Of a stretch of DNA of 64,000 nt, positions 3,442-64,000 are shown in pieces. The stretch spans positions 3,888,501 through 3,952,500 of the forward strand of contig CP141143.1 of assembly GCA_035235625.1 (NCBI GenBank), written 5' to 3'. The notes under the pieces are model-generated. The model saw nothing but the letters and a program-made list of their open reading frames with translations, was not told the origin of the DNA and ran no database searches. The DNA comes from Saururus chinensis. Taxonomy: Eukaryota > Streptophyta > Magnoliopsida > Piperales > Saururaceae. Position numbers and translations under genes: made by a program. Each line of letters begins with the position of its first letter. Position 1 is the stretch's first letter.

Positions 3442-4280
3442 ATGGCGTCCCGTATGGTTGCTAGTGAGCTAAGCAAAACTAAAAAACTCAACTCCACCAA
3501 CTACCAAACCTGGAAGAGGAGGATCATACATATTCTTTTCCTAGATAACCTAGCCCATGTTTTGGACCAGTGTGTGGACCCACTTACAGATTCTTCCACT
3601 GAAGCTCAGAAGATAGCTTATGAAAAGTTTAAGGAGGAAGATGTCAAAGCAAGGACAACCCTCCTTATATTCATGGAGCCAAGCATTGAAATGTTTTTTA
3701 AAAAGCATAAGACTGCCAAGGAAATGATGGAGGCAGTAACTAGGCGGTATGGAGAGCACACAGAGGCTTATATTATGATATTGCAAACCCGTTATCATAA
3801 CATTAGCATGAGGGAAGAAGATAATGTGCTTGAGCACATTAACTCCATGTCCATCATTGCAAATGATCTGGAGATCCTTAAGAACCCCACAAATGAGGGG
3901 ATCCAAGTTTTAACCGTTCTGAATAGCCTCCCTAGGTCTTGGGAGAGTGTGGTTGTTGCATTAAACATCTCTAATAAGAAACTCACACTGGATGATCTCA
4001 CTGTCAAGCTTAGCTTAGAGCAAGAGAGGAGGAACCATGTGAGTGTTCTGAGTGCATCTGCCAACATTGCCCAGCATGGTGGCTCTAAGAAAGGTGGAGG
4101 AGGTGGTGGTTAAGGTCAGAGGAAGAAGAACTTCAAGAAAAAGGGCAAGAAACCCTAAGGTGGTGGAAAGGGAAACAATGGCAACAAACCCAAAGGGGCT
4201 TGTTTTAAATGTGGCCAGATGGGTCATTTTAAAAACAACTACCCTAATGGGGATCAGGGAGCTGGAAACAAGGCAAATTA
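3442..4280 (+). pseudogene. copia gag remnant with zinc knuckle
   Basis: The region begins at ATG 3442 (MASRMVASELSKTKKLNSTN) and has the usual copia gag layout: a UBN2-like middle part with NYQTWK near the start, then Gly/Lys-rich sequence, then a CCHC-type zinc knuckle starting CFKCGQMGHF near 4200. It lies about 930 bp downstream of the 5' LTR, the normal leader position. It is a fossil and is broken. Confidence 0.9.
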
Positions 4281-7200
4281 GAAAAGGAAATATATCACTT
4301 GCATGATCTCAGAGGTTATGACTGTTGACTTCAATGAGAAGAGTTGGTGGCTGGATTCTGCAGCCACCAAGCATGTGGCTATGACTAGGGGTGACAGGAT
4401 GACTGATTTGTCTCCAGGGCAACACAAGATCTACATGGGGAATAACACACTTTGGGATGTGACTGCTATAGGCACCTACAGGATCCCTCTTCCTCAGGGG
4501 ATTAACTTGGTGCTGACAGATATCCTCTTTGCCCCTACCATCAGAAGGAATCTTATCTCAATTCCTTTCCTCATTAGCAAGGGGTTTGAGATTAGGTTTA
4601 AGGGTCAAAGGCAACAGTTGGCAAGAATAATAAGATTTTATTTACTGTTTCTTTTTGTGATGATTTATTTAAGTTAAATGTAGCATATGACTCTTCAATT
4701 AATGCAGTAGTTAAGTTTGAGTATGTGGTGTGTTTGTTTGATGTTGATTCTTTGATGTGACACTGGAGGCTTTGTCATGTACATATTAACAAATTACATA
4801 TAATGTCTAACATTAGACTCCTCCCTAAGTTATCTAGGGATATGCGTGTGTGTGAAGACTGCTTGGCAAACAAAATGAGTAGGTAGCCCTTCCCAAAGGG
4901 TAAGTGTGCCACAGACCTTTTAGAGGTCATTCACTCTAACATATGTGGGCCTATGAATATACAAACCCATAGAGAGATGATGTATTTTATTACATTCATA
5001 GATGATTACTCTAGGTTTGGTTATATATACCTCCTAAAGCGAAAGTTTAAAGCCTTTGAGAAATTCAAATAATTCAAAGCTGAAGTAGAGACTATATTAG
5101 GTCGGTTAATTAAAGTCCTAAGAACGGACAGTGGTGGAGAATACACCTCTGATGAGTTTAAAGACTATTTCACCAACCTAAGAATTATACACCCTACCCT
5201 ATACTCCTCAGAAAAATAAAGTTGTTAAAAGGAGAAACAAAACTCTCTTAGATATGGTTAGATCAATGCTGAACCACTCAGAGCTAGGAGTAAATTTTTG
5301 GGGTGAGGCATTAGACACTGCTGTATATGTGCTTAACCGTGTATCCACTAAGGCTGTTAAGAGAACACTTTATGAGTTATTGATAGGTAGATGTCTTGAC
5401 TTAGGTCATCTTAGAGTGTGAGGGTTTAAAACACATGTAAAAGTGCATGACCAACATAGAAGCAAACTAGACCCTAAAACAATAAAGTGTAACTTTATAG
5501 GGTACAATGGGTACATGTTTGTAGTGCACCATACTGATGGGATAGTGGGGGTCATTGAATCTAGGGATGCTTATTTCCTAAAAGAAGACTTAGACCTTAA
5601 AATTCTTAGTAAAAGAGTAGAATTATTTGAAGTAGAGAAAGAGCAAAATACTACTACTTCTACAGAGGTAGTTATAGGATCTGAACCTAGGGGAGTGTCT
5701 GAAGTAAGGGAAGGGAGAGATAGAAGACCCATGACTTTGATACGGGACTTCTATGCCATGTTAGGATATGATGAAGTAATAATAGTTAAACCTTTATCTG
5801 AAGATAAGGAAACCTATGAGAAGGCAATGGATAGTCCAGAATCTAAGGAATGACAATTAGCTATTGAAGAGGAAATTGATTCCATTATGAAGAACAAAGT
5901 CTGGGAAGTTGTTGACTTGCCCAGTGAAAGAAAACCTATTGGCTGTAAGTAGATCTTCAAGAAAAAACACAAGACATATGGGTCTATAGATAAATATAAA
6001 ACAAGACTGGTAGCTAAAGGTTTCAACCAAGTCAAGAGAATTGACTTTAAGGAAACCTATTCACCTGTGACTATATTTACATCTATTAGGTGTTTATTGG
6101 CTATAGTGGCACAATTATACTTAGAGTTGCACGAAATGAATGTAAAAACTACCTTCCTAAATGATGATTTAGAGGAGGAGATTTACATGGAATAACCTGA
6201 GGGTTTTGTTATTCCCGGAGAGGAACATAAGGTGTGCAAACTCATAAAGTCTTTATATGGCCTTAAACAGTCTCTTAGGCTATGATACTTCACTTTTCAC
6301 AAGGTGATTAGTGCGCATGGGTTCATAGCAAATGAATGTTATCATTGTGTCTACTCTTTTAAGGATGAAAATAGATTTATGTTACTCTCTCTCTATGTAG
6401 ATGATAACCTTTTGATGAGAAATGACTTAAGCTTAATAGTTAGTCTAAAGGAGTGCCTCAAGGCCCAGTTTGAAATGAAAGACATGGGTGAGGCCTCCTA
6501 CATACTCGGTATGAAGATTGACAGAGATAGAAAAGTAAGGTTGTTTAGTATATCTCAAGAATTATGCATGAAAAATATTTTGAAACGCTTCGGTGTGATT
6601 GGTTGGAAAACAATAGAGTCTCATATCTATAAAGGTATAACATTATTTAAAAGTCAAGGCACCATCCTCTAACGAGGATAGACTCAAAATGGAGTCAATA
6701 CCTTATGCACGGGCTATTGGCAGCTTAATGTATGCCATGACTTGTACTCGACCTGATTTGAGCTATGTTGTAGGGCTCTTGAGTTGATACTAGGCAAATT
6801 CAGGTATGGCTCATTGGTAAGTAGTGAAACGAGTTTTTAGGTACTTTTTGGGAACCAAAGGTGTGAAACTCACCTATCAAGCTGAAGAACTGGGTATAGT
6901 CATTTAGACTATGTTGGGGTCCCAGATGATAGGAAATCCACTGTTAGTTATGTCTTCATGTTTGGAGGCGATGCTATAGCTTGGGTTAGTAAGAAGCAAA
7001 AGAGCGTAGCAAAGTCAACCATGAAAACTGAATTTTATGCATACAGTTTAACAGCTTCAGTAGCAGTGTGGATTAAAGACTTTCTATCCAGGCTTAGGCT
7101 AGAGAGCTGGGTTGATTCTCTTGTCTAGATGTTTTGTGATAATCTAGCTATTGTGTCGTCACTTAAAAATAGAGAAATCAACGCTAAAAGTAAACACATT

Positions 7201-49680: not shown

Positions 49681-51281
49681 ATGTCTCTTCCCTGTCAGGA
49701 CTGCATCTCCAACCTTCTCTGCGGCGAGGACTCGACCGGGCTCCTCGCCGAAGAGGAGCCGGAGGAGTACTATCCGGGGGATATTGTCTTGGCAGCCGAC
49801 GTCGAGGAGCTAATGGAGGAGCTCGTGGCGGAGGAGAGGGACTACTGCCCGGCGTCCGACTACCCGAGTAGATTCAGCTCGAGGCTGCTCGACGCCTCCG
49901 CTAGAGAAGGCGCCATCGCCTGGATTCTCAAGGTAAACGCCGTTTGCTTTGACGTCCACCCCACCCTGATTAACACGAATATTCCAACTGTCGTCAGCCA
50001 ACTTTAAACTTTTCCATATAAATGGAAAAGCGGAACTGGTTCATTATCGTGGTTCTGATGTTTCACTCTCAGGTGCATGCCTACTACCATTTCCAACCTT
50101 TGACGGCGTATCTCTCCGTCAACTACATGGATCGCTTCCTGGCTTCTCATTGTCTGCCGGTATGGTTTTTGGCTTAAGTACCTCTTGTTTTTGTGTACAC
50201 CAATATAGGTTTTAGATGCTGAACAGGTTTCTTTCTACTCCAACTTCCGCCTTAATCAATTGTCGTTACAGCAAGCCAACAACGGGTGGCCTTTGCAACT
50301 CCTGAGTGTTGCTTCCTTGTCTTTGGCGGCCAAAATGGAGGAGAAACTCGTCCCATCTCTTCTAGATCTCCAGGTATTGATCAGATGAAAATCTCTTTAG
50401 CACCAATTATTTCCTAGTAAATGATTTACTCCGTTAACGATAATACTGTAGTCCGCATTTTATACGATGCTGGTTCATGTAAGGAAGGTTCTAGTTTGTT
50501 CAGGCAGAGGGCGCTCGATTCATCTTTGAACCCAGAACGATTCGTAGGATGGAGCTTCTAGTCCTCAATGCGCTGAATTGGAGGCTCCGGTCTGTAACTC
50601 CCTTTGATTTTATTGATTTCTTCGCATTTAAGATCGACCCAAGCGGAGCCTGTGCTGGGTTTTTGGTTTCACGTGCCACTCAGATTATCCTCGCCACCAT
50701 CCATGGTAATTCTACCCTAGCATTCGTTTACTGTTTTGTTTTTTTCCTTTTCTCCCTGAGAGTTGCACGTTTTCATAGACATGTGTATAAACCACACTTT
50801 CTCTGAAACTGTCTAACAGAGACTAAGTTCTTGGATCACTGGCCGTCCTCAGTTGCTGCGGCCGCCATTATCTGCGCTGCAGATTCGTTGCCGAATCTCC
50901 CTCTGCTCTATCCTGGAGATGCCGTATCGTGGTGCGTTGGATTGAACAGGGTAAGGGAACCTGATACCGTACAAATTCTACAAGTGACATGATTGGCCAA
51001 CTGATTTTTCTTTAAATTTTATTTTTTTACAGGAGAAGATTGTGAGTTGCCATGAATTACTGCAACAAGTTGTGCTTAGTAACAGTAACGAAAAAAATAA
51101 TAAACTTAATAAGATTCCAAAGGTTGTACCCCAGCTCAGAGTAAGGACTCGGACCGAATTGGGATCTGGTGATTCCTCTACCTCTTCTGGTTCCACTTCG
51201 CAGAAGAAGAGGAAACTGAACAGTTTATTATGGGTGTATGATGATATTGGTAGTCGTGAGGACTCTGGGGATGGTCATTAA
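49681..51281 (+). CDS. CYCD1: D-type cyclin, CYCD1 class; exon 2 one base short
   Basis: Regulatory partner of CDKA at G1/S. Exons: 49681-49932, 50074-50159, 50272-50373, 50504-50705, 50820-50950, 51033-51281. LLCGE at residues 12-16 is the LxCxE retinoblastoma-binding motif. The cyclin box runs from SRLLDASAREGAIAWIL through NYMDRFL, SLAAKMEEKLVPSLLD and RRMELLVLNALNWRLRSVTP; the tail SGSTSQKKRKLNSLLWVYDD is CYCD1-like. Every exon fits the family phase except exon 2, which is 86 bp where 87 is expected. After FQP the sequence CCTTGACG should by homology read CCTTTGACG; as given, it makes TGA in frame at about 50101. Either a single-base sequence error or a real one-base loss truncating the protein. 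With the base restored by family expectation the length would be 340 residues, normal for CYCD1. Confidence 0.9.
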
Positions 51282-53257
51282 GGAGGGAGAGTGGACTTCT
51301 AAAACAGAAAAAAAAAACAATAGAAATAAGAGTTGTGACCAATAAGACTGCTTAGACATGGGTTTGGCAGAAGCCTCGTTTTTTTAGAGGGTTTCAGAAT
51401 TGGATTAACATCGCCAGGTTAGGCTCTATATTAGTATTCTAAAGTGTTGTGGAGTTGTGCCTGGTTCTTTCATTCATCACTGAATTGTTTTCCTTAAGAA
51501 GTTGGTATTGATATTTATTGATGTCTTGATGATGAGGAGGGAGGGAACGGATTGCAGATTCCCAAGGGAGTGACATTGGTTGATTACTTGATTATTTTTA
51601 TCTGTGAGAAAGTAAGGTAAGAGCCCGAGAGATGGATATGTGGTGTTGATCGCAGATAAGAATTCAAAGGGAGCATTGATTGTGGAATAAAAGGGTGAGT
51701 AGCGGGTGGGCCAAGTTGGGCAAAAGAAGACGGCAGACATTGCAGGGTAAAAATAAAGGTGAGATAAAGAGGCACTCAAATTATCATCTTGTCAAGTTTC
51801 TTGCTAGCTCCAACATCATTGCTCCGCGGGCACTACAGTCTATTTATAGTATTTGTTTCAGTCACAATTCCTTCGTATCGGAGATTCAAGACGGAGACAT
51901 AAGGCTCAAACACAAATGTTTTCGAGCTGAATTAATTATATTGTATATGGCGGGTTATGTGTAGACGCTGGTTGTATGTTTGTTTTGAAGACTAAAAAGA
52001 AGAGGCAAAGAGAAAGCTTTTTCGGAGTGACATGAAAGTTTGAGATATTTGTATTTAAAAATCATTTTGATGGCAGTTCATTGCTGTTGATATATATGCG
52101 GTCATCTGCATGCTTTATGCATTCAAAGATAAGTGAAAGCTGCAGTGAAACAAGGCATCGCTAGTCCCTAGATTTCTCCGTCTCCTTGGATTGAGTGGAA
52201 GTGAGATGTGAACCTCAAAGGACCTGAGTGAGAACTTCCCCACATTTCTTCTTCTTTTGCATGCATGGCATGTGCCTGGCACTCAGTTTTTAGCATTGTC
52301 TCTTTGTTTGGTTTCGGGGCTCTGCATAAGAGTGCCAAAAACAACGTTGGGATGTAGCATGGAAGTCGGACCCATAACGAACCGACAGTATTATACACTG
52401 AAAATGACCTTCTTTCGTAGCTCCCGTGACCTAACGAGCACTTTAATCAGCCCAGTATATGTTTTCACATTTACTGTTGACTATTCTTCCCTTCTATCTT
52501 CTGCAACTCTGCAACTACACCTCTTCCTTGCATTATTTCCTTTCTTTCTGCGCTCCATCTTAAACTTGGACCAACCCACCACGATCACACTGCCTGTCTC
52601 TCCTGCAAACGTTCAGAGATTGACTCTTTGACTGTCTCTACCTTCTAACTACTTCACGTGCCCACTGTCACTAATTAATTCACACCACTGACCAAACTTA
52701 TTTCTATTCTTAATTGGAAGGGTCAGAGGCTCTCAGCTTAAGTGTTAACAAGGTAATTAATTTGGATATCATGTACGGTATTATCATTCAGAAAACTTAT
52801 GATTTATTTGATTTTTCTCCTCGCTTGATGAGGATGAGGAATACCATGCAATTTGTGTTAGCCGGGCTGTAGCGAAACTAATTGAGAACGATTATTAGAG
52901 GCTCTAATCTAGCCTCCTCCGTCCCTCGGGACCAGCAAGAGGTAGTACATGAATCCAGTATCCTCAGCCTATTTAGCGAGTAATAAGTTTGGTTTAGGGT
53001 TATCAACAAAAAAAAGTTTGGCCTAGGATTGATAGCAAATCGATTGACCAAAGTGGAGCTTTCCCAACTTCACTCGAACCTGATCTAATTTCACGCCGAG
53101 TACGGCTTCGTTCATTTTATTCTGTATCAAGCCTAGTCAAGCCAAGTCTATTTTTTCTTAGAATGGCAAGTTTCCTACCCCAAGCTATAGCCAGCCCACC
53201 TCATTTTGTTTAAGTAAGTAACTTAAAGGTTTTTTTTTTCTTTCCCATGCATCCATT
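51282..53257. other. Intergenic stretch, no recognised gene
   Basis: Begins with the cyclin 3' UTR. Open frames at 51477-51779, 51680-51964 and 52257-52631 overlap on opposite strands or lack family character. Nothing else I can support. Confidence 0.5.
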
Positions 53258-53310
53258 GTGACACCCACCCCTCTATTAAATTACCCACCCCCAACTTACC
53301 CACCCCATGA
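53258..53310 (+). repeat. Candidate left terminal repeat of the MULE
   Basis: GTGACACCCACCCCTC and two further CCCACCCC copies within 50 bp. The inverted window end (64000 backwards) reads GAGTCGCCCACCCCCACTCT and also has a second GCCCACCCCACTG about 60 bp in. Similarity is clear at motif level but not along the whole length. Confidence 0.45.
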
Positions 53311-53586
53311 GAGTGTAACCCATTTGACTCTCTACCTCGCCGGAGACCTCGCCAGAGCCCTCACCGAAACCCTTGCCTAAACCGTCACCAGCGACCACTG
53401 TCCACAAGGGTGGCCACCGTCCATTCCTCATTTCCTCCTTCCTTTGTTCTTTCTTTTCTTAAAACTTTTTTACTTTTGGCACCCTCTTTTTGGAGTTCTC
53501 ACCGGCAACCTTATCGGATATTGATCTTCTTCTTAGTAGATCTCCCCTTCAAAGAATAGTTTGTGGGCAATCATTTTTTGTCTAAT

Positions 53587-56540
53587 ATGGATGCATTTGA
53601 CAAGTTATCAATTGAAAAGGTAGAAGAATATGATTTTTGTCCTAATGAACTAATACCCACACAAGATAGTGAGACAAAGGTACATTCCTATCACCTAACT
53701 ACCATCATTTAAGAAAAAAGATGTTTTTTACATTCATTTATTTTTGCATTCCTTTTGTTTAATTATTAGTAAGATGTATACCAAGTAGTGCATACCATAT
53801 GTTTGACAAAATGCATATGAGTGGTAATGGTTTCTAAGAAGACTATATTCAATTTTTTTTATTAGTTTGAATAATATTTGACACATTCAATGCCATCAAA
53901 TGATCATTCCGAAGATATTTTACTCAACACTTCTCCATTAAAGGTACTTTTTGTTACAATATATTTTGTATATGTAGTGTATTTGAATAAACATGTGTAA
54001 CATAGAATAGTCTCCAAAATTATTGTTTGACTTTTGGAATAGGTTGAAGAGAATGTAGTCGTTTCATCCTCATTGTATGGCCATTCCGAAATTCCTTACA
54101 TGGTTCAAAGTTCAAAGGTATAAGTTCAAATATTTGAACATTGTATATTATGTTGTTGAAAAATGCATTTATTTGATATAGTTTGTAATAATGACATTTT
54201 AATATCTTTAATAGATTGAAGAAAATGAAGTTTCCTTATCATTATCAAATTTCATTTCTAATGACATTTCATTAGCCCTTCAAACCTCAAAGGTACAACC
54301 TTATTCAAAATATATGATCATGTTATCTAGTTAGAATTTTAGATGTAGATTTTAACTTCAATTTTTGTTGAAATGTAGGTATTTGGTACTCGCGATGAAT
54401 TATTAGATTGGGCGAGGAGTGTATGTTTGAAGCATGGAACGGTTATTGTAATACTAAGATATGATGGACCTTATTCTTGACGAACACCTCGTCTTCTTCT
54501 TGGTTGTGAGAGATCTCTTAAATATATTCCAAGGAAACAATCTACAACAAAATCTTCGACAATAAAATGTGAGTGTCCATTTCGGTTAAAAGGAACTCAA
54601 GTTACTACAAATGATATTGTTGGGTGGAAATTAGAGTTTTATGTGGTTGGCATAACCATAAAAAATTTGAATATGGTGAGAGTCATTCAGTGGCGGGAAG
54701 ATTGAAGCCAAATGAGAAAATGATTGTCCAAGAAATGTCTACTGTGGGGGTAAAACCAAGTGCTATTTTGAGGAGGCTAAAGGAAAAAGACCCAAATAAT
54801 TATTCCACATTATGCAGTATTTATAGTGCAAGGAAAAGGATGAGGTTAAAGTCTTGTGAAGGTCGAACTCAAATGCAAGAGTTGATGAAATGCCTTGAAG
54901 AAGCTAAATATGTCACTTACTATAGGAGGGATGAAAAAACGCAAATGGTGTCTGATTTATTTTTTGCACATCCACAGTCCATGCATTTGGTGAATCTCTT
55001 CTCAAAGGTTTTTGTGATTGATTGCACATACAAGACAAATAGATTCTCTTTGCCTATGTTTTGTATTGTCGGAATTGCCTCAACAACCCAAAACTTCTAT
55101 GCTTGCTTCTCTTTTTTGTCATCTGAGAAGAAGAGTAGTTTCACATGGGCACTAGAGAAATTCAAGTCTTTGCTAAACCCAAATGAATTGCCACTAGTTT
55201 TTGTTTCAAATAGAGACCAAGCATTAATTAAAGCATTGAGGAAAGTGTTCCTACAATCAAAGAATATGATTTGTGTGTGGCATATTGCTAAATGTATTTT
55301 CACAAATTGTCGAAAAGAATTTAGGGATGGTGAAGTTGCATGGGATACATTTTTGAATAGTTGGAAGACTTTGGTTTACTCAGAGAATGTTGATCAATTT
55401 GAAGCATTAATGAAGAAATTCAAGGAGGACTACAAGGCCTACACTAAAGTGTTGAAGTATTTGGATCAAACATGGCTTATTCCATATAAAGAGTGTTTTA
55501 TATCAGCATGGACAGACAAATATATGCACTTTGGGAACAAGGCATCAAACAGGGTTGAGTGTGCACATGCTCAAATTAAGAAATAGCTTAGGTCAATAGA
55601 TGTATCTTTACTTGAATCCTGGCGGGTGATACATAATGTTGTTTTATCACAAATTGATAAAATAAAAGCTTCTTTCGAAGATAGTAGAATAAGAGTTAGA
55701 CATATGCTTAACATTTCATTTTATAAAGAATTGATTGGAAATGTGTCAAAGGCAGCATTGGAGCTAATTGAGATTGAAAAAATAAAAAGTAATGGGATGG
55801 GCATCATTGAAGTTTCTTGTGATCACAAGTTAAGGATTACCCATGACTTGCCATATGCTCATCAATTATCACAATGGATTCTTGAAGGTCAAAGTGTTCC
55901 CTTATATGAAGTTGACATGCATTGGAGGAAACTATCTTTTGAAGGATCATTTGATTGAACTACGGAGATTGATTTTGTGTCAAATTTGGAGAAGTTACTT
56001 CAAAAGTTTATGAATTCTAATGATTTGATGAAAATACAAATGAATGAACAAGTAATTGAGATGATTAATCCCAAATCTACATCTTTGCGTGACCCACCAT
56101 TGTTATCCAGGAAGCGTGGAAGACCTAAGGGTGTTTCAAAAAAATAAGATAAATGTTGAGCATCCTCAAGGAGGGACCCTTTTGGATTTGAATATGTTGA
56201 GGCTGATGTAAAGAGTCAAAACAGTGTACGAAAGCCCACTATAGCCAAGTTGCAGCCAAAGAGGCCAAAAAAGGGGGAAGTCATGCAACCAATGCAATCA
56301 AATATTACATCATTGCTTCAAGAACTTCCCAAAGCAATCATACCATATGTAGACAATATTGTGAATGTTCCATCTGACGTACATTGTGGTTTCAGAGTTA
56401 TAGCTGCTTCACTTGGAATGGGAGAAGATGGATGGAAGAAAGTGAGAAGTGATCTAATCGATGAGTTGTTGCTACATCGTCTTGAATATGAAAAGTTGTT
56501 TGCAAGTAAAGAAAGAGTAAATGAATTGGAGCTAATGTAG
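53587..56540 (+). pseudogene. MULE transposase with WRKY-GCM1-like finger, SWIM region and OTU-like tail
   Basis: Candidate exons begin at ATG 53587 (53587-53679), followed by three short similar exons (about 53884-53943, 54043-54117, 54214-54292), each ending before GTA. A long exon then starts after ATGTAG at about 54379 (VFGTRDELLDWARSV). A C-x-C ... C ... H-x-H finger (KCECPFRLKG, LCGWHNH), the MULE domain with its acidic triad (VIDCTYKTN, SNRDQALI, NRVECAHAQ), a SWIM-like SCDHKLRITH, and an OTU-like DVHCGFRVIAASLGMGEDGW follow; the OTU Asp and Cys are kept. It is decayed: in-frame stops at about 54478, 55584, 55957, 56145 and 56155, and a frame change near 54640. Best intact stretch 54624-55583. 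The host is not expected to make active transposase from it. Confidence 0.85.
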
Positions 56541-57545
56541 TTACATATCAGTGTACAAAAATGAAACTACATAACTGCTCAAAATAAAATTTTCCTTCCC
56601 TGCCACTCGAAAAACATAACTGCTCCAAAAAACAAGAGTTCAAAGGACAACTACATATCACATCTACACATCTACACTATGTCTTCTTTTTTCCCTTCCC
56701 TTTCGTTCGTGACTTCAGGGTTACTCTTTCCTTTCTCCTTGGATACAATGTCTTCTCTAATTCATCAGACTCATTAGCTTCAATAACATCACCATCAAGA
56801 AGTGTAGCCAATACAGCTCGCTGATTCTCCCTAAGGGATTGCACCCCTACATCCTCATCATCAAGAGCTAATGTGTCACGCCCCGGAGATGGCTGACCCG
56901 AGCCGAACCCGGTCCAGGGGCCTGTCAAGCGCGCGGGGGCGACGAAGGGGAATTTGAGAAACGATCTAGCGAAAGACTTAACCCTAACCACGGGCGATTA
57001 ACAGAAATTACGGAGTATGCACAATCCTTTGAGCAAGAGTAAATAAAGAGGGGAAAAAAGGTGTTGCTTATCACAAAGTAAACAACAATCTCAAACCCAC
57101 AAGCTTAGTTTAAGTAAAGCCCACACCAGCTCAAAATAAGTCATAAGCATCACAACTGTAAAATGTGACATAAATCCAAAACAAGAACCTTACACAAAGG
57201 TTCAAAACAACAGCATAACCAAGGAAAATAAACAACACAAAGATATCCACGATCACATCTAAGCCATCTCCGACCTTTCCTCAAAGAGGAGATCCTGTCC
57301 GTCTGTGTATCGTACCACGCAACCCCAAATCAAAACACAAGAAAGAGGGGTGAGTTTAACAAACTCAGCAATGGTTTTTAATATCATTAACAACATCAAA
57401 AATACGATAGCATAGTGATAAAATCATTCAAATCAAAGATTTACATGGTGCATCATTTTCTAATCACATATACACATCACCTAAAACTGCATCATAATGC
57501 ATCATAATCCACATAATTTCATTCTCATCATAACATCTTGCATGA

Positions 57546-57826
57546 AATGTATCTCTAACATACATATTCCATCAAGCATCATATCAAAATCAACCTACAT
57601 GGATGTATCTCTAACATACATATTCCCACATGCAACATCTCATAATCAACCTGCATGGATGTATCTCTAACATATATATTCCCACATGCATTCACATCAA
57701 AGTCAACCTGCATGGATGTATCTCTAACATATATATTCCCACATGCATTCACATTAAAGTCAACCTACATGGATGTATCTCTAACATACATATTCCATCA
57801 TGCATCATATCATAACAACCTCCATC
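57546..57826 (+). repeat. 56-57-bp tandem repeat, about 5 units
   Basis: TGTATCTCTAACATAYATAT starts units at about 57548, 57604, 57660, 57717 and 57774; each continues CCCACATGCA..TCA and CAACCTRCATGGA. It lies in the solo LTR and creates a repetitive open frame (57630-57815) that is not a gene. Confidence 0.93.
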
Positions 57827-58860
57827 AAGGAGTAGTCACACATTGGTGCCACGAAGGCGTGTAAAGGTCCAAAATTTTACACAAGAATTCAAGAAAGATC
57901 GGGGTTGTCAATCCCTAATACTGCTCGCCCTGGACGATTCTAGCCAAGGATGTCCCATTCTCACACAGAGAATCTAAAGCAAGGGTGTTCGCCCAGGGAC
58001 ATCTCTTGCAGAGGGAAGAGCCCGAGTTCTTACACAAAGAACCCTAGAACACGTGGTAGCAGGGTGCACACGGCATACCACACTGGATTCTCAGGGTCCA
58101 GATGACACACATAATAACATTCTCATAATCCGCAAGACAAGTACACAACTCGTCCCCACATCATTCCATTTAACTAGACTCAACCCGGGGAGTGCACTCG
58201 TTCCACACAGGAACTTCAAATCAAAAACATGTCCTTTTGGACCAACCAACTTTCGATTAATCCACAACTGATCAATCCGGCACACAATTTTACCACATTG
58301 CATCCAATCGATCAAATTCGATTAACCTCAATGAAGCCTCAATTGGAAATCCATTTTCATAATGCATGCAGCATGGTACATACGTGGGTAAAGCATACAT
58401 GAATCCTAATCCATGATAAGTGCTCTCATCAGCCCCTAATGCATCATTCATAATCACAATATCAAGCTTCAACATCATCATTTAACCCCACATGTGTGTA
58501 TGTATCTAGTAGAAGTATTTCACATAATGCATGCCAACATGCTTGAAATTAAACTCACTATCACACTACAAATGTGAATTTCTATCTAAACATGAATTCC
58601 AGCGGAAATCATAGGAGAAGAATCGTTGAAATCGTATCCCAATTCAAAACTCAACCACAAAGGCTAAACCCATATAACATCACTCATTTCATCATTGAGT
58701 CATGACATTCACCAACATCCACACACAACTAACCACAATCTATCATGACAAATCAGTCCAATAATAGATTATAGTTCTACTGAAAATATGCTTAACAATG
58801 AGAAACCAACCATTCATAATTTAAAGATGACGATTCCAACATCATGCCACAAAACATAAG

Positions 58861-59156
58861 TAGGGATGCCACTCGGGTTGGGTAAATGGTAAACCCGACC
58901 TGACCCGACCCTAATGGGTCGGGTCGGGTTTTAGTGATCCAACCCGACCCGACCCAAATATAAATATAAATATAAATTTATATATTTTTTAATATTATTT
59001 TTTAAAAAAAATTGAAATAATAATAATATATATATATATAATATTTTTTTAATCTATTCGGGTTAAACGGGTTGGGTTCGGGTCATTGCTTTGTGATGTG
59101 GGTTCGGGTTCGGGTTTGGCAAAACCCGACCCGAACCCGACCCAGTGGCCTCACTA
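58861..59156. mobile_element. hAT-type MITE nested in the solo LTR
   Basis: A 296-bp element with ends TAGGGATGCCACTCGGGT and CCCAGTGGCCTCACTA, flanked by a perfect 8-bp duplication AACATAAG (58853-58860, 59157-59164). It is the same family as 7448-7744, with GGGTCGGGTCGGGTT-type arrays at both ends. This copy keeps its CCCGACC arrays better, so it is probably younger. Confidence 0.95.
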
Positions 59157-62100
59157 AACATAAGTCATTCCACAAATTCCTAAGCATATATCTCAATTCC
59201 ATAACCTTAATAGCATGCCTTTTCAGTAGCATAACATAGCTTAAAACACACCACATTCATATGAAATTGGCAATCTAAAGTGGAATCATCAAAATAAACA
59301 TCATGTATTATAAAATCAATCTGTTGTGTAGCCGTTCGAATGCCCTTTAGGCCGTTTGATCGGTTAAATGCAAAATTTTAAATTTTACAGTTTGGCCATT
59401 CGAACGCCTAGCAGGCCGTTCGATCGGCTGAACTGGAAAATTACCGATCCGACAGTGTTGCTGTTCGAACGCCCAGAAGGGTCGTTGGAACGCCAACAAG
59501 GCAGAACTGGTCATCTTCTTTCTTTCACAAATCCAAACCGAAACACCATTGATAACACTTCAAATCCACATCTAACACCCTAATCATCATCAAAAGTCCT
59601 CATTGACTTCCAGAACATCAAACCATATCATAATAATGTAAAACCCTAAGAAATCGGGATTAAATAATTTTATTTTTTAATCTTACCATTAACACACCAA
59701 ATCAAGCAAACTCCATTCGAAATAAGCTAAAAATGAAGAGTTTTACCATGGATAACCAGAGATTTTGAAGACCCATTACCTCAGCACTTGATTAAGCTCG
59801 GATGAAAGAGTAACCCTTCTTGAAATCCTTGAAAACACAATGAGTTTGAATTAAACTCTAATAGAAATCGATTTACCCAAGAAATCCCTAATTAAATCTT
59901 AGATCTAGGGTTTGTTGGTAGTAAAAATCGAATTTTGAATGTTAGGGTTTGTAATAAAACACAAATTAGTAGTTTTTGATGCCCAAAAATGAATTGAATC
60001 AAGGGGAAAATGGTAGATTTGGAAAAGCTTAAGAAGAAAGTCATGGATTAGTGTTTAATTAAAGTAAGCTTACCTTAAAACGCTTCTAATTCGGGCCTAA
60101 TTAGGGATTAGGCCTGCCTCCCTCCTTAGCCTATTCCCAAAAATGAAAATGGCTCTGGTTTGCCCTTTTATAGTAAGGGTTGGGGTATGCATGGGTAAGT
60201 TTTGGGGTGTAAATAGGAAAAGTAGGCTAAAAATGGGTATTTTACAAATTTAAGCTCTAATTAAGCCTAATAAAATTTTAAAAATTTTTGTATAATCTTA
60301 GGTAGATATCTAGGTTCATTTGACCCAAAAATAAAATTTTCGAATGCCAATTGAGGTCCGCCAAAACCCTAATTTTTGGGAAAATAGTAAAAATTCTAAA
60401 AAATCTCAAAAATTCACATTTGGTTTAAAATTACTTAAAATCACTAATGTAATAGTTGATTTTGGTTAAAACCATTACAAACACTATTTATTCATGAAAT
60501 CACTGAATAAGATCAGAAAACACGTTAATCTCACGATAACCAATAATTAAAGAAAACCAAAACCGGTTTAGAGATGAGGGTCCTTACATAATGACTTCTC
60601 TAACAAGGCAATGACATCATTTATGCGAACATGCTACACAAGATAAATAAAGATGTTAGAGACCTAATTACTTAAATTAAACAAAACACTTTGAAGTAAA
60701 GAAGTACCTATTGTTCATCTTTTGATATGACGTAATGACAATTTGATTTATCTGTGCGCTTTGCGGGGTTTTGAACAATTTTATGTGTAATAGAATTGTA
60801 CCACTTTGCATATCTTGCTGCACAATCCCAAGGCTTTTTCACATGTTCTAATTCTTCCAACGACACCTGTTGTATTTCACTACGATTCCATGTCGATGGA
60901 TCTCCATCATAGTGCAGAATATAACTTTTTGCATTGGCACCCCTATTGGAATCTGTTGTTGGATGAGGTGGTGGAGGTGGGATAGTTTGGATAAAACCAA
61001 ACTGTCTTAGTACTCGCTCAGGGTTGTATGCCTCATTAACATGAAAAGAGAATAATATCCCAGAGTACATTGCATTTTGAGGTAGCATGTACACGCTTCT
61101 TTCTTCACAACAAGGATTCCAAATCACCTATAATATGCAAATAAATTTGAGCAAGTAACTCTATATCTATTATTATATACAATTACCTATAATAACATTT
61201 TACCTCATGAGCCTTCAAATCATCCAATGCCTCCCTAAAATATTCCAATTTCGGTTTTGGGTGTGTGGGTTGCCGCTTCACTTGTTTCCACCGCAATGCA
61301 CGCTCTTCCCCTGCTTCAAAGTCGGGGTTAATAGCTGGTCTATCAATTCGAAAGTGTTCATACGACCATGCCTATAAGAGTAGACACCACATGTTAGTAT
61401 ATAATATGCAATTTATATATATGATATAAAATATCCAGTAATTTGACGCACCTCTAGTAGAGTCAAATATCCAGTAATTTGATGCACTTCTAATCTTGAA
61501 GCAACTCCCAACTGGCGGTATAAATATGTTAGTGTGGCTGCTCCCCAAGCATATTTTGAGACTGCATCAAGCTCCACAAGTAAATTTAAATACTTTGCTG
61601 GTACCATGCTTCTGGACTTATCACAAAAAATAGTACAACCCAACAAGTATAACAAGTAAGCTCTAGCGGCACATTCCAAATCCATGGCAGATGCATCCTT
61701 GGGTAATTTACTAAACTTAGTGTGAAGCCAACCCAAATTAAGATATTTTCCTTTGCATTCAGCTAGCTCAGCTTTAATTTCTTTTAAACTTACCCCTAAA
61801 ACACTGCTACACAAATTAGCCAGTCCCTCACCTTTGAATTCAAGGGTTGTCACTGCTCTTCCCACCACAAGGATATTAATCAATTGATGGACATCATCTA
61901 AAGTGATCGTCAACTCTCCAAATGGCAAATGAAATGTGTTCGTTTCAGGATGCCATCTCTCAACTAAGGCAGATATCCAAACTTTATTACAAGTATTGTA
62001 TAATACCTTTGCTAAAGAAAGTAATCCAGTTTTCCTTACCAAAGGTTCTATCCGCTGGCCATTGATATTACACTCGTTTAGCTTATGAGTATGTTGAAGG

Positions 62101-62459
62101 CATCGCAAGCTATTACGTCCCTAAAAAAAATTAAGATATTTATGTAGGATATTGCATAATGATTGAAAATATATTGTCAAAAATGTTAGTTAACAAAAAA
62201 TTACCTTACTTGTCCATATCTCATGGGCAATATGTGTTTTAAAACTTTTTAACACACTTGAGTCAATTGGCCCTCCTGGAAATTGTTCGGCTTCTTCCCC
62301 ACCTTCGTGTACATTTTATTTCTCCTATTTGATCAAGTTCTTCATTAATGTCTCCTTCCACTTATCTCCATAAATTTGACTTTAAAATTTCATTGGCAGC
62401 ACTTTTTGATCTCCTATATGAAGCCGTTTGTCGTTTCCTTTTCATCTTGGGAAAACCTA

Positions 62460-63596
62460 CATATTATATAACATTTCAGCAATTAGCCGTCACTGTAATT
62501 TAACTAACTGAGATAATTCAGTTTGTCAGTTGCCAATTCAATGTGTCAGTGAGAATTTAGTTCAACAACTAACAATTGACAAAAACATTATAATTGTTGG
62601 AGGGTAAAGTAGCAACTAAGAATAAAACTGTAATTTATAAGCAGATGAGAATAAAACCATAGCTTATAAGCACTAAGAATTTCAATTGTTGGAGGATAAA
62701 GTAGCAAAAATTGAAATGTGAATCATGAAAATCGTTAGAACAAAGAAATAAATGAATTTCAGTCACAGTTTTACAAATTTACCGTAGTTATCAAATCATT
62801 AGAACAAAGAACATGAATTTCACTCACTCGTATCAAATCATTAGATCAAATACATAAGGAAAGCAATTAAGCTAGTTGCACAATCAAAACATGGTGTAAG
62901 CCTCAAAACAGAAAGATGCAACCATGGAACTCTTACAATTTGACCGGCTACGACCAGGTCCTGCCACTTCCACAACCTAATTGACTGACATGTATGCAAA
63001 TCTCCAAGTGAGTTCCTACTACCGTATACAACCTAAATGACTGTTAGCCTAGATGGTAGAACTGCTTCAACTTTTCTTTGAAATGAGCAACCACAGAAAT
63101 TTTAAACAAATGGCAAAAGCAATTTATGAAACAAGTGAAAAAAGTAGAAGAAGAAGAAATGGATGAAGTGAAGAGAGAAGAAACTGAGCAATGGGAGGAA
63201 TAGAGATGCAAACAATTTTGTCTGCTGCAAGTGTAATAGATAGTATACGAATTTGTACTATCTATTACACTTGCTGCAAAAAAAACCACAGGCAGCACGA
63301 TTTGGTTTCAATTGTTATCATAGTCATGAATAATTTGGAGCAAAATAGATATTAAATAAGCAAATAGCATGTCCTTACTCTGATATGCTTCAATAACAGA
63401 ACCGGTGTATCATAAAAGCAGATTGACAACTACAGTATCAAGAGAGACGAATAACATGTTAAACTCATAATAGTTGAAATTTGAATTGTATTGACATTTA
63501 GATTTGATAAATGTAGGTGGCTTCTGGTACACATATGGCATTTCAACCATTCAACACTAGGCTGACCAAAATTTCTGCTCAACTGCTAAAAAAAAT
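62460..63596. other. AT-rich stretch between the PMD gene and the right end of the MULE
   Basis: No gene. Repeated weak phrases are visible (AACAAAGAA, ATCAAATCATTAGA at about 62790 and 62830; AAACTGTAATTTATAAGCA at about 62625). Contains the hairpin at 63227-63274. Confidence 0.45.
63227..63274. repeat. Perfect 19-bp hairpin
   Basis: GCAAGTGTAATAGATAGTA and its exact reverse complement flank a 10-base loop (63246-63255). Perfect pairing over 19 bp in decayed DNA suggests a recent foldback duplication. Confidence 0.92.
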
Positions 63597-63692
63597 AAGT
63601 GATTTAGGGCTTGGCCGGAGAAGTGATTTAGTGCTTTGCTAGAGAAGTGATTTAGGGCCTTGCCGGAGAAGTGATTTAAGGCTTCGCCGGAG
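63597..63692 (+). repeat. 24-bp tandem repeat, 4 units
   Basis: AAGTGATTTAGGGCTTGGCC followed by GGAG is repeated four times with few changes (63597, 63621, 63645, 63669). The period is a multiple of three and yields NHFSGKAL repeats on the minus strand. It lies about 300 bp inside the presumed right end of the MULE, a position typical of subterminal repeats. Confidence 0.92.
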
Positions 63693-63699
63693 AAGTTTA

Positions 63700-64000
63700 G
63701 GGAAAAGAAAATGACTAACCTGATGGGCTCAAACTGGGGGGCTCGATAGCGGAAGAAATGATTAACAAGAGGGGCTTTGTGGCGGAAGTTCAACGGCTCA
63801 ACCGAATGGGCTTGGCGGCGGAAGTTCTGCGGCGGTGACTAACAAGAGGGGCTCAACCCAATGAGATCGGCGGCGGAAGTACAGTGGTGGAGTTGGGTGT
63901 CAAGGACAGAGATGGAGAGGCATCACAGTGGGGTGGGCATTCCTTTTCCGTCGGGCAGGTGAGAGGGAAAATTAAAACCCAGAGTGGGGGTGGGCGACTC
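63700..64000 (-). repeat. Candidate right end of the MULE with GGCGG repeats
   Basis: GGCGGAAGT recurs at intervals (near 63782, 63809, 63871) with AACAAGAGGGGCT (63765, 63841), an imperfect repeat of about 75 bp. The last 40 bases carry GTGGGGGTGGGCGACTC, the candidate inverted terminus. The true end may lie beyond the window. Confidence 0.4.

Follow-up and report, generated by a model that had tools for sequence, protein, structure and literature searches.

A Mutator-like element of Saururus chinensis in which a transposase with an OTU-like tail faces a convergent plant mobile domain gene

The occurrence of plant mobile domain (PMD) genes in plant Mutator-like elements (MULEs) is already in print: a table in PMC6446971 gives PMD 'in antisense for most of them' in MUDR, places PMD in several other plant MULE groups, and lists 'PMD and/or DUF' (domain of unknown function) in half of the VANDAL members. 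Host PMD proteins act in silencing (PMC5418596, PMC7156037), PMD encoded by transposable elements has been proposed as counter-silencing (PMC5418596, PMC8616336), and VANC, the VANDAL accessory protein, targets tandem repeats whose short motifs change fast (PMC5735166, PMC10398659). The element described here lies in a stretch of 64,000 bp from Saururus chinensis (contig CP141143.1, positions 3,888,501 to 3,952,500; C4:3888501-3952500 in our numbering), which we call the window, and the genome searched with it comprises 516 Mb in 11 contigs. An initial annotation of the window took the association of PMD with plant transposons as established, and the table in PMC6446971 agrees; the pairing as such is not new. 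What we describe is a MULE with terminal inverted repeats (TIRs) and two genes that run inward and meet tail to tail, one encoding a transposase with an OTU-like tail and the other a PMD protein, with a spacer of palindromic units between them. We regard this structural description as close to certain.

We recognize a MULE by a MULE/DDE transposase domain and by TIRs with a target-site duplication (TSD) of 8-11 bp, and the window copy has both: a match to PF10551 (MULE domain) above the Pfam cut-off (E 1.7e-23), and ends at 53161 and 64064 flanked on both sides by a perfect TSD, TTTTTCTTA (9/9). The element is 10,904 bp long, including a 3,715-bp long terminal repeat (LTR) insertion, and its right end lies beyond the window, where the initial annotation had advised looking for it: the end is at 64064 and the second TSD at 64065-64073. 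The copy C6:18.67M aligns with the window MULE from end to end, in four pieces, at 96-99% identity. That one transposon holds both genes, as first suggested, is borne out by the shared ends, the 9-bp TSD, and recurrence elsewhere, and recurrence tail to tail with TSDs was a test set beforehand. Specifically, i) DNA searches, one with the transposase (46 matches; 58 candidates, the best 40 scored) and one with PMD (50 matches; 115 candidates, the best 40 scored), show the two genes together, with the same orientation toward each other, not only in the window but at nine or more further loci (C5:25.75M, C6:18.67M, C1:28.89M, C7:0.44M, C9:7.78M, C2:21.56M, C3:10.84M, C6:15.07M, and C9:0.70M); ii) among the eight copies of this family (family 1) where both end candidates were found, seven have a TSD, matching at 9/9 in the window copy, C5:25.75M, C2:46.77M, and C6:37.29M (the last two being shorter derivatives without the transposase core) and at 8/9 in C6:18.67M, C9:0.70M, and C7:0.43M, and at C9:7.78M no TSD was found despite both end candidates; and iii) distances between copies measured in the transposase and in PMD agree closely (Mantel r 0.96; 39 pairs, 10 copies; permutation p 0.0002). 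We conclude that the two genes descend together. Two separate adjacent transposons are ruled out by the shared ends, the TSD, and the recurrence.

The layout spans clades whose OTU-like tails are only 41-47% identical. A search with the C6:18.67M tail protein gives matches at 149 places in the genome, many of them 40-47% identical with long open frames, and the PMD exon protein has 152 matches, 150 of them listed (best 150 of 1,652 candidates scored). When 114 OTU loci and 147 PMD loci, the latter from the best 150 of the 152 PMD matches, were paired with a limit of 12 kb, every one of the 58 PMD loci with an OTU locus that close was convergent with its nearest one among the matches listed, against a mean of 0.77 neighbours and a maximum of 5 in 200 runs of random placement; all 59 combinations within the limit comprise 58 convergent and 1 divergent, the last between two neighbouring pairs. 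The tail-to-tail pairing is not chance. All 55 listed PMD loci at or below 43% identity lack an OTU neighbour and are taken to be mainly of retrotransposon type, and 44 of 93 distant OTU loci have no PMD within 12 kb among the matches listed, again from the best 150 of the 1,652 PMD candidates scored. The genome is very rich in PMD as such (2,740 first-look candidates; best 117 scored, 186 matches), with many matches in open frames of 214-262 codons and a second match downstream.

A sister family (family 2) has the same layout with ends of its own. Its copy at C5:4.433-4.446M (C5:4.44M) has the end sequence GAAGCTGGCTATTTAAACCCC and is flanked by a perfect TSD, ATATTGATA (9/9); no matching TSD was found at a second sister copy, C9:7.08M. 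The transposase-OTU gene of C5:4.44M is open for 604 codons in its C-terminal half and has its N-terminal part in other frames, so that this copy may also be damaged. That N-terminal part has one match over the cut-off, to the AFT DNA-binding domain (PF08731), and one below it, to FAR1, which supports a DNA-binding N-terminus in the sister family; a SWIM-like motif in the transposase was seen by eye only. The family-2 PMD gene matches PF10536 at E 4.2e-47.

Selection on PMD within the transposon lineage is clearest in this sister family. In deep pairs (synonymous divergence, dS, >0.4), the ratio of nonsynonymous to synonymous divergence (dN/dS) has a median of 0.09 for PMD (12 pairs, 7 copies) and is 0.20 for the OTU-like tail (59 pairs, 16 copies), and dS in the two genes correlates at 0.98 (21 pairs, 7 copies); these comparisons use 16 of 21 tail sequences and all 7 PMD exons, with pairs at dS <=0.03 left out. 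We conclude that PMD is under purifying selection in this family. Because the same layout is found at dozens of places in the genome, it seems that the transposon makes use of the PMD gene and does not simply carry it along.

Several results pull the other way. Shallow family-2 pairs give higher ratios (PMD 0.34 in 6 pairs, tail 0.57 in 42 pairs); the 12 deep PMD pairs all cross one split, which sets 4 copies apart from 3 others; and paired, mostly stop-free copies were chosen, which lowers the ratio, so that the family-2 values lean low. Family-1 copies are mostly dead, and their overall median dN/dS, with pairs at dS <=0.05 left out, is 0.59 and 0.41 for the transposase segments, 0.55 for the OTU-like tail, 0.62 for PMD exon 4, and 0.47 for PMD exon 2; in the deepest bins the transposase segments stand at 0.31 and 0.20, the tail at 0.42, and PMD exon 2 at 0.38, with no fall for PMD exon 4 (0.63). 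The family-1 analysis was confined to copies that span at least half of a segment, to pairs of 50 codons or more, and to codons free of gaps and stops. Finally, 34 of 92 PMD loci at 44% identity or above are without a listed OTU neighbour.

The features of the window copy, with strand where one applies, are these:

53152..53160, plus strand: left TSD TTTTTCTTA; the right copy, 64065-64073, is outside the window
53161..64000 in the window and on to 64064 outside it, no strand: whole MULE copy, with ends GAATGGC/GCCATTC and a 9-bp TSD
53161..53202, plus strand: left TIR, outer ~42 bp, from an inverted alignment of the first 42 bases of both ends in C5:25.75M
53262..53310, plus strand: subterminal CCCACCCC repeats, from the sequence and a local inverted match with the right end
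53587..56540, plus strand: pseudogene of the transposase-OTU, with its ATG at 53587 and its main exon starting at 54379, disrupted by frameshifts and premature stops
~53865-53944, 54044-54117, and 54216-54292, plus strand: putative transposase mini-exons, limits read by eye
55008..55292, plus strand: MULE (DDE) domain PF10551, from Pfam
56340..56528, plus strand: OTU-like domain remnant; Asp 56376-56378, Cys 56385-56387, His part missing
56524..56529, no strand: deletion junction with shared AATTGG; position 3670 of C6:18.67M aligns to 56529 and 5226 to 56524
56677..62445, minus strand: PMD pseudogene (PF10536); exon borders by eye from splice-like sites
~62445-62217, 62120-61451, 61371-61205, and 61130-60708, minus strand: PMD exons, by eye
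~60633-60589 and 56873-56677, minus strand: last PMD exon, split by the LTR, by eye
56874..60588, no strand: solo-LTR-like insertion TG...CA of 3,715 bp with TSD TAATG, splitting the last PMD exon

The initial annotation had both genes bracketed by inverted CCCACCCC ends. In fact CCCACCCC is a repeated subterminal motif, internal to the outer 42 bases and not the extreme end; the true ends lie outside it, at 53161 and 64064. A convergent PMD gene on the opposite strand was correctly called: PF10536 matches in two minus-strand exons (E 5.9e-44 and 2.6e-8, the second at 33.9 bits against a cut-off of 34.9), tail to tail with the transposase. The transposase with an OTU-like C-terminus holds in part, the MULE domain and the Asp and Cys being present, with an OTU identity that comes from motif only and a window copy that lacks the His part. 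The 136 bp between the genes, from the end of the tail open reading frame at 56540 to that of the PMD frame at 56677, are likewise present in the window, and they arise from a deletion: ~1.56 kb is missing at 56524-56529 relative to C6:18.67M, where the two stop codons are ~1.3 kb apart (~4057 and ~5379). Lost with it were the His-bearing latter half of the OTU-like domain, the spacer, and the palindrome array. A functional overlap of the genes across the 136-bp gap is ruled out by its origin as a deletion product; the short gap is accidental, unlike the tail-to-tail order. With its stops, frameshifts, deletion, and LTR, the window copy cannot give full-length proteins and is dead. Of the annotation's overall interpretation, the single transposition unit survives, in a dead copy and with an OTU assignment that is motif-based; its ideas on integration targeting, evasion of silencing, and removal of ubiquitin are conjectural.

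The start of the transposase gene (53587-54292) seemingly consists of several short similar exons, and portions of it give more than one alignment in other copies. Relatives of the 56874-60588 insertion, ~76-90% alike, occur at C9:7.78M, C9:7.04M, C8:25.82M, and C5:15.21M, loci of the same MULE family. Alignments of at least 40 bases are shown for the deletion and the LTR, and of at least 60 bases for the copy-to-copy comparisons, including that of the 53587-54292 stretch. Elsewhere in the window, two open frames at 3442-4677 resemble gag and pre-integrase of a copia-type retrotransposon, and frames at 49681-50806 resemble a D-type cyclin gene, both by eye.

In copies that retain a spacer, the ground between the genes is occupied by tandem units, present in every spacer examined in three clades: 159 bp in C6:18.67M, 158 bp in C5:25.75M, 138 bp in sister clade 2a (L067), and 147 bp in sister clade 2b (L100). 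The units carry 16-bp palindromes of the form CGG-N10-CCG whose sequence differs by family; the family-1 palindrome CGGTGGAYRTCCACCG and the sister-family palindrome CGGGGGGTACCCCCCG both fit this form, and clade 2b shares the core of clade 2a in a shorter palindrome. Across the 516 Mb there are 11 sites of CGGTGGAYRTCCACCG, against 0 for the reversed control, and 8 of the 11 are in copies of family 1. Two more lie 159 bp apart at C1:8891068 and C1:8891227, where there is no transposase or PMD match among those listed and where we perhaps see another derivative; one is a single site at C6:37.71M. CGGGGGGTACCCCCCG has 165 sites (reversed control 0), and the 50 of these that are listed divide into 19 inside OTU-PMD intervals (222 kb in total), 10 within 5 kb of a match, and 21 elsewhere. 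The family specificity of the palindromes is weakened by these last 21, which are near no listed OTU or PMD match; two that were read, in L072 at ~600 and L073 at ~600 (C1:7.217M and C2:38.655M), are 67-85% alike in pieces; with the sister family, L072 has no more than 22-23 bases in common and L073 has no match. It looks from these sequences as though another repeat carries the CGGGGGGTACCCCCCG palindrome, that of clade 2a, too. Within one spacer, moreover, perfect palindromes of at least 14 bases (2 in family 1, 2 in clade 2b) are no more numerous than in the best of 200 shuffles (2 and 3), and the case for the palindromes is made by how often they occur across the genome and recur from copy to copy, not by single-spacer counts. 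Palindrome arrays between the genes are apparently new: none of the literature passages compared mentions them, in a comparison that included no search by that name.

In the fuller copies, gene A is a transposase with a MULE/DDE core and an OTU-like tail, and gene B a stand-alone PMD gene pointing inward toward it. By analogy with maize MuDR, each would be transcribed inward from its own terminal repeat; the transposase would act on the element ends, and the PMD protein would serve the element at the chromatin level, a role suggested by the action of host PMD proteins in silencing. It would most likely blunt the host PMD silencing pathway of MAIN/MAIL1-PP7L type or act at the spacer palindromes, and the OTU-like tail might remove ubiquitin-type marks carried by the transposase or by chromatin. 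As a whole, the two-gene MULE together with these functions is the best combined explanation we have, evenly poised between right and wrong; an anti-silencing role for the PMD protein, taken by itself, is put forward tentatively and is somewhat less probable than that. More doubtful still is the idea that PMD or the transposase-OTU protein is a self-recognition factor that binds the CGG-N10-CCG arrays and opens the silenced chromatin of its own family. If it were so, binding would be family-matched at CGGGGGGTACCCCCCG versus CGGTGGACGTCCACCG, and we would have a second, independently evolved MULE anti-silencing system, with protein and motif changing together between families and the host's own PMD silencing module turned against the host. 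The arrays could equally be VANC-like targets or stops for two facing transcripts. PMD proteins are among the least understood silencing factors of plants, and their transposon relatives are an obvious place to learn what PMD does; with dozens of copies in a fixed layout, a constrained PMD, a tail on the transposase that may be a ubiquitin protease, and palindromes that differ in sequence between families, the proposal that transposon-encoded PMD works against silencing becomes directly testable.

MULEs often capture host genes, and PMD might be a passenger of this sort, a fragment taken up from a host gene in the manner of Pack-MULEs, a possibility to which the 2,740 first-look candidates lend some colour; the single orientation of all 58 nearest pairs, the purifying selection in family 2, and the co-descent of the two genes speak against it, and we count passenger cargo as ruled out by selection and orientation, with at most a very slight probability remaining to it. 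The arrays might instead have nothing to do with PMD and serve as two-way transcription stops or insulators that separate the convergent transcripts and avoid double-stranded RNA. Tandem units in all spacers examined in three clades would suit such a role, as would the position of the C6:18.67M array (4387-5025) between the two stop codons, with two AATAAA on the transposase strand, the first ahead of the array and the second within it; on the PMD strand of that spacer, however, AATAAA was not found, and the two 16-bp palindromes, which have no central spacer, would suit a protein dimer better than an RNA hairpin. We consider the insulator role a minority possibility, rather unlikely overall. 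Unlikely too, and a little more so, is that PMD acts in insertion or target choice rather than at chromatin, as a transposition cofactor like maize mudrB, which is apparently required for integration (PMC6446971); the two-gene element is as in MuDR, and the constraint on PMD fits either role, but the host proteins MAIN and MAIL1 act in silencing and gene expression (PMC5418596, PMC7156037), and the PMD exons hold no recombination domain over the Pfam cut-off, the nearest being DDE_Tnp_IS66_C (E 0.13, below it).

The tail raises a question of its own: an active ubiquitin protease, or a structural domain whose Cys/His pattern is a relic or due to chance? In its favour as a protease, the pattern D-G-H-C ... 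N-x-H-F recurs across 23 tail sequences (aligned from open frames only) and is kept between clades 41-47% identical, Asp, Cys, and His are all present in 15 of the 20 sequences covering the three sites, and the three best PDB profile matches are all VCPIP1 sequences aligned at the DGHC motif. VCPIP1 is an OTU enzyme. On the side of the structural domain, the VCPIP1 matches are weak (E 0.19 to 0.32); the Pfam OTU profile PF02338 reaches only a sub-threshold match in 1 of 23 tail members (E 0.039) and none in the C6:18.67M tail or the 604-codon family-2 frame; 5 of the 20 sequences lack one of the three residues; and AlphaFold models of the tail are of low confidence and uninformative (mean predicted local distance difference test, pLDDT, 41 and 49), with a best Foldseek hit at E 0.91. 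An OTU assignment by Pfam profile is rejected, and we name the tail OTU-like rather than OTU, from its motif only. A purely structural domain still seems to us the less probable reading, about on a par with the insulator role of the arrays. The OTU-like tail on a MULE transposase is apparently new; no report was found in the literature searched with OTU and PMD/MULE terms, a scope that takes in neither subscription papers nor Repbase notes.

Set beside the described systems, the element resembles the plant MULE groups with an antisense PMD reading frame (MUDR, MUDRAVI2, MDR, MULE-Monocots, and MULE-Solanaceae_1; PMC6446971), with which it shares the MULE transposase, TIRs, 9-bp TSD, and antisense PMD; the main text of that paper mentions neither OTU nor 'tandem repeat', and the likeness drawn here is one of layout. 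The MULE-PMD elements of grasses and Amborella, for which the authors suggest anti-silencing, also carry PMD on a MULE, but fused to the transposase, whereas here it is a separate convergent gene (PMC5418596). Maize MuDR likewise has two genes per element, with TIR promoters and convergent transcription, but its second gene is mudrB, reported only in Zea, where ours is PMD (PMC3276141). Protease-bearing elements are known too: the Ulp1-bearing MULE KIU likewise carries a protease domain, of ubiquitin-like-protein type, but in a separate gene and not as a transposase tail (PMC13317346), and Helentrons join an OTU-like cysteine protease domain to a DNA transposon protein, but are rolling-circle elements of animals and some fungi rather than MULEs (PMC6431247). 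Arabidopsis VANDAL/VANC elements combine an accessory gene with noncoding tandem repeats bearing a short family-specific motif (PMC5735166, PMC10398659). Tandem noncoding repeats with a family-specific motif are what we find here too, although the clade 2a palindrome also occurs in another repeat; the VANDAL/VANC motif is YAGTATTAY, whereas in Saururus the motif is a 16-bp palindrome and the accessory protein is PMD (PMC5735166, PMC10398659).

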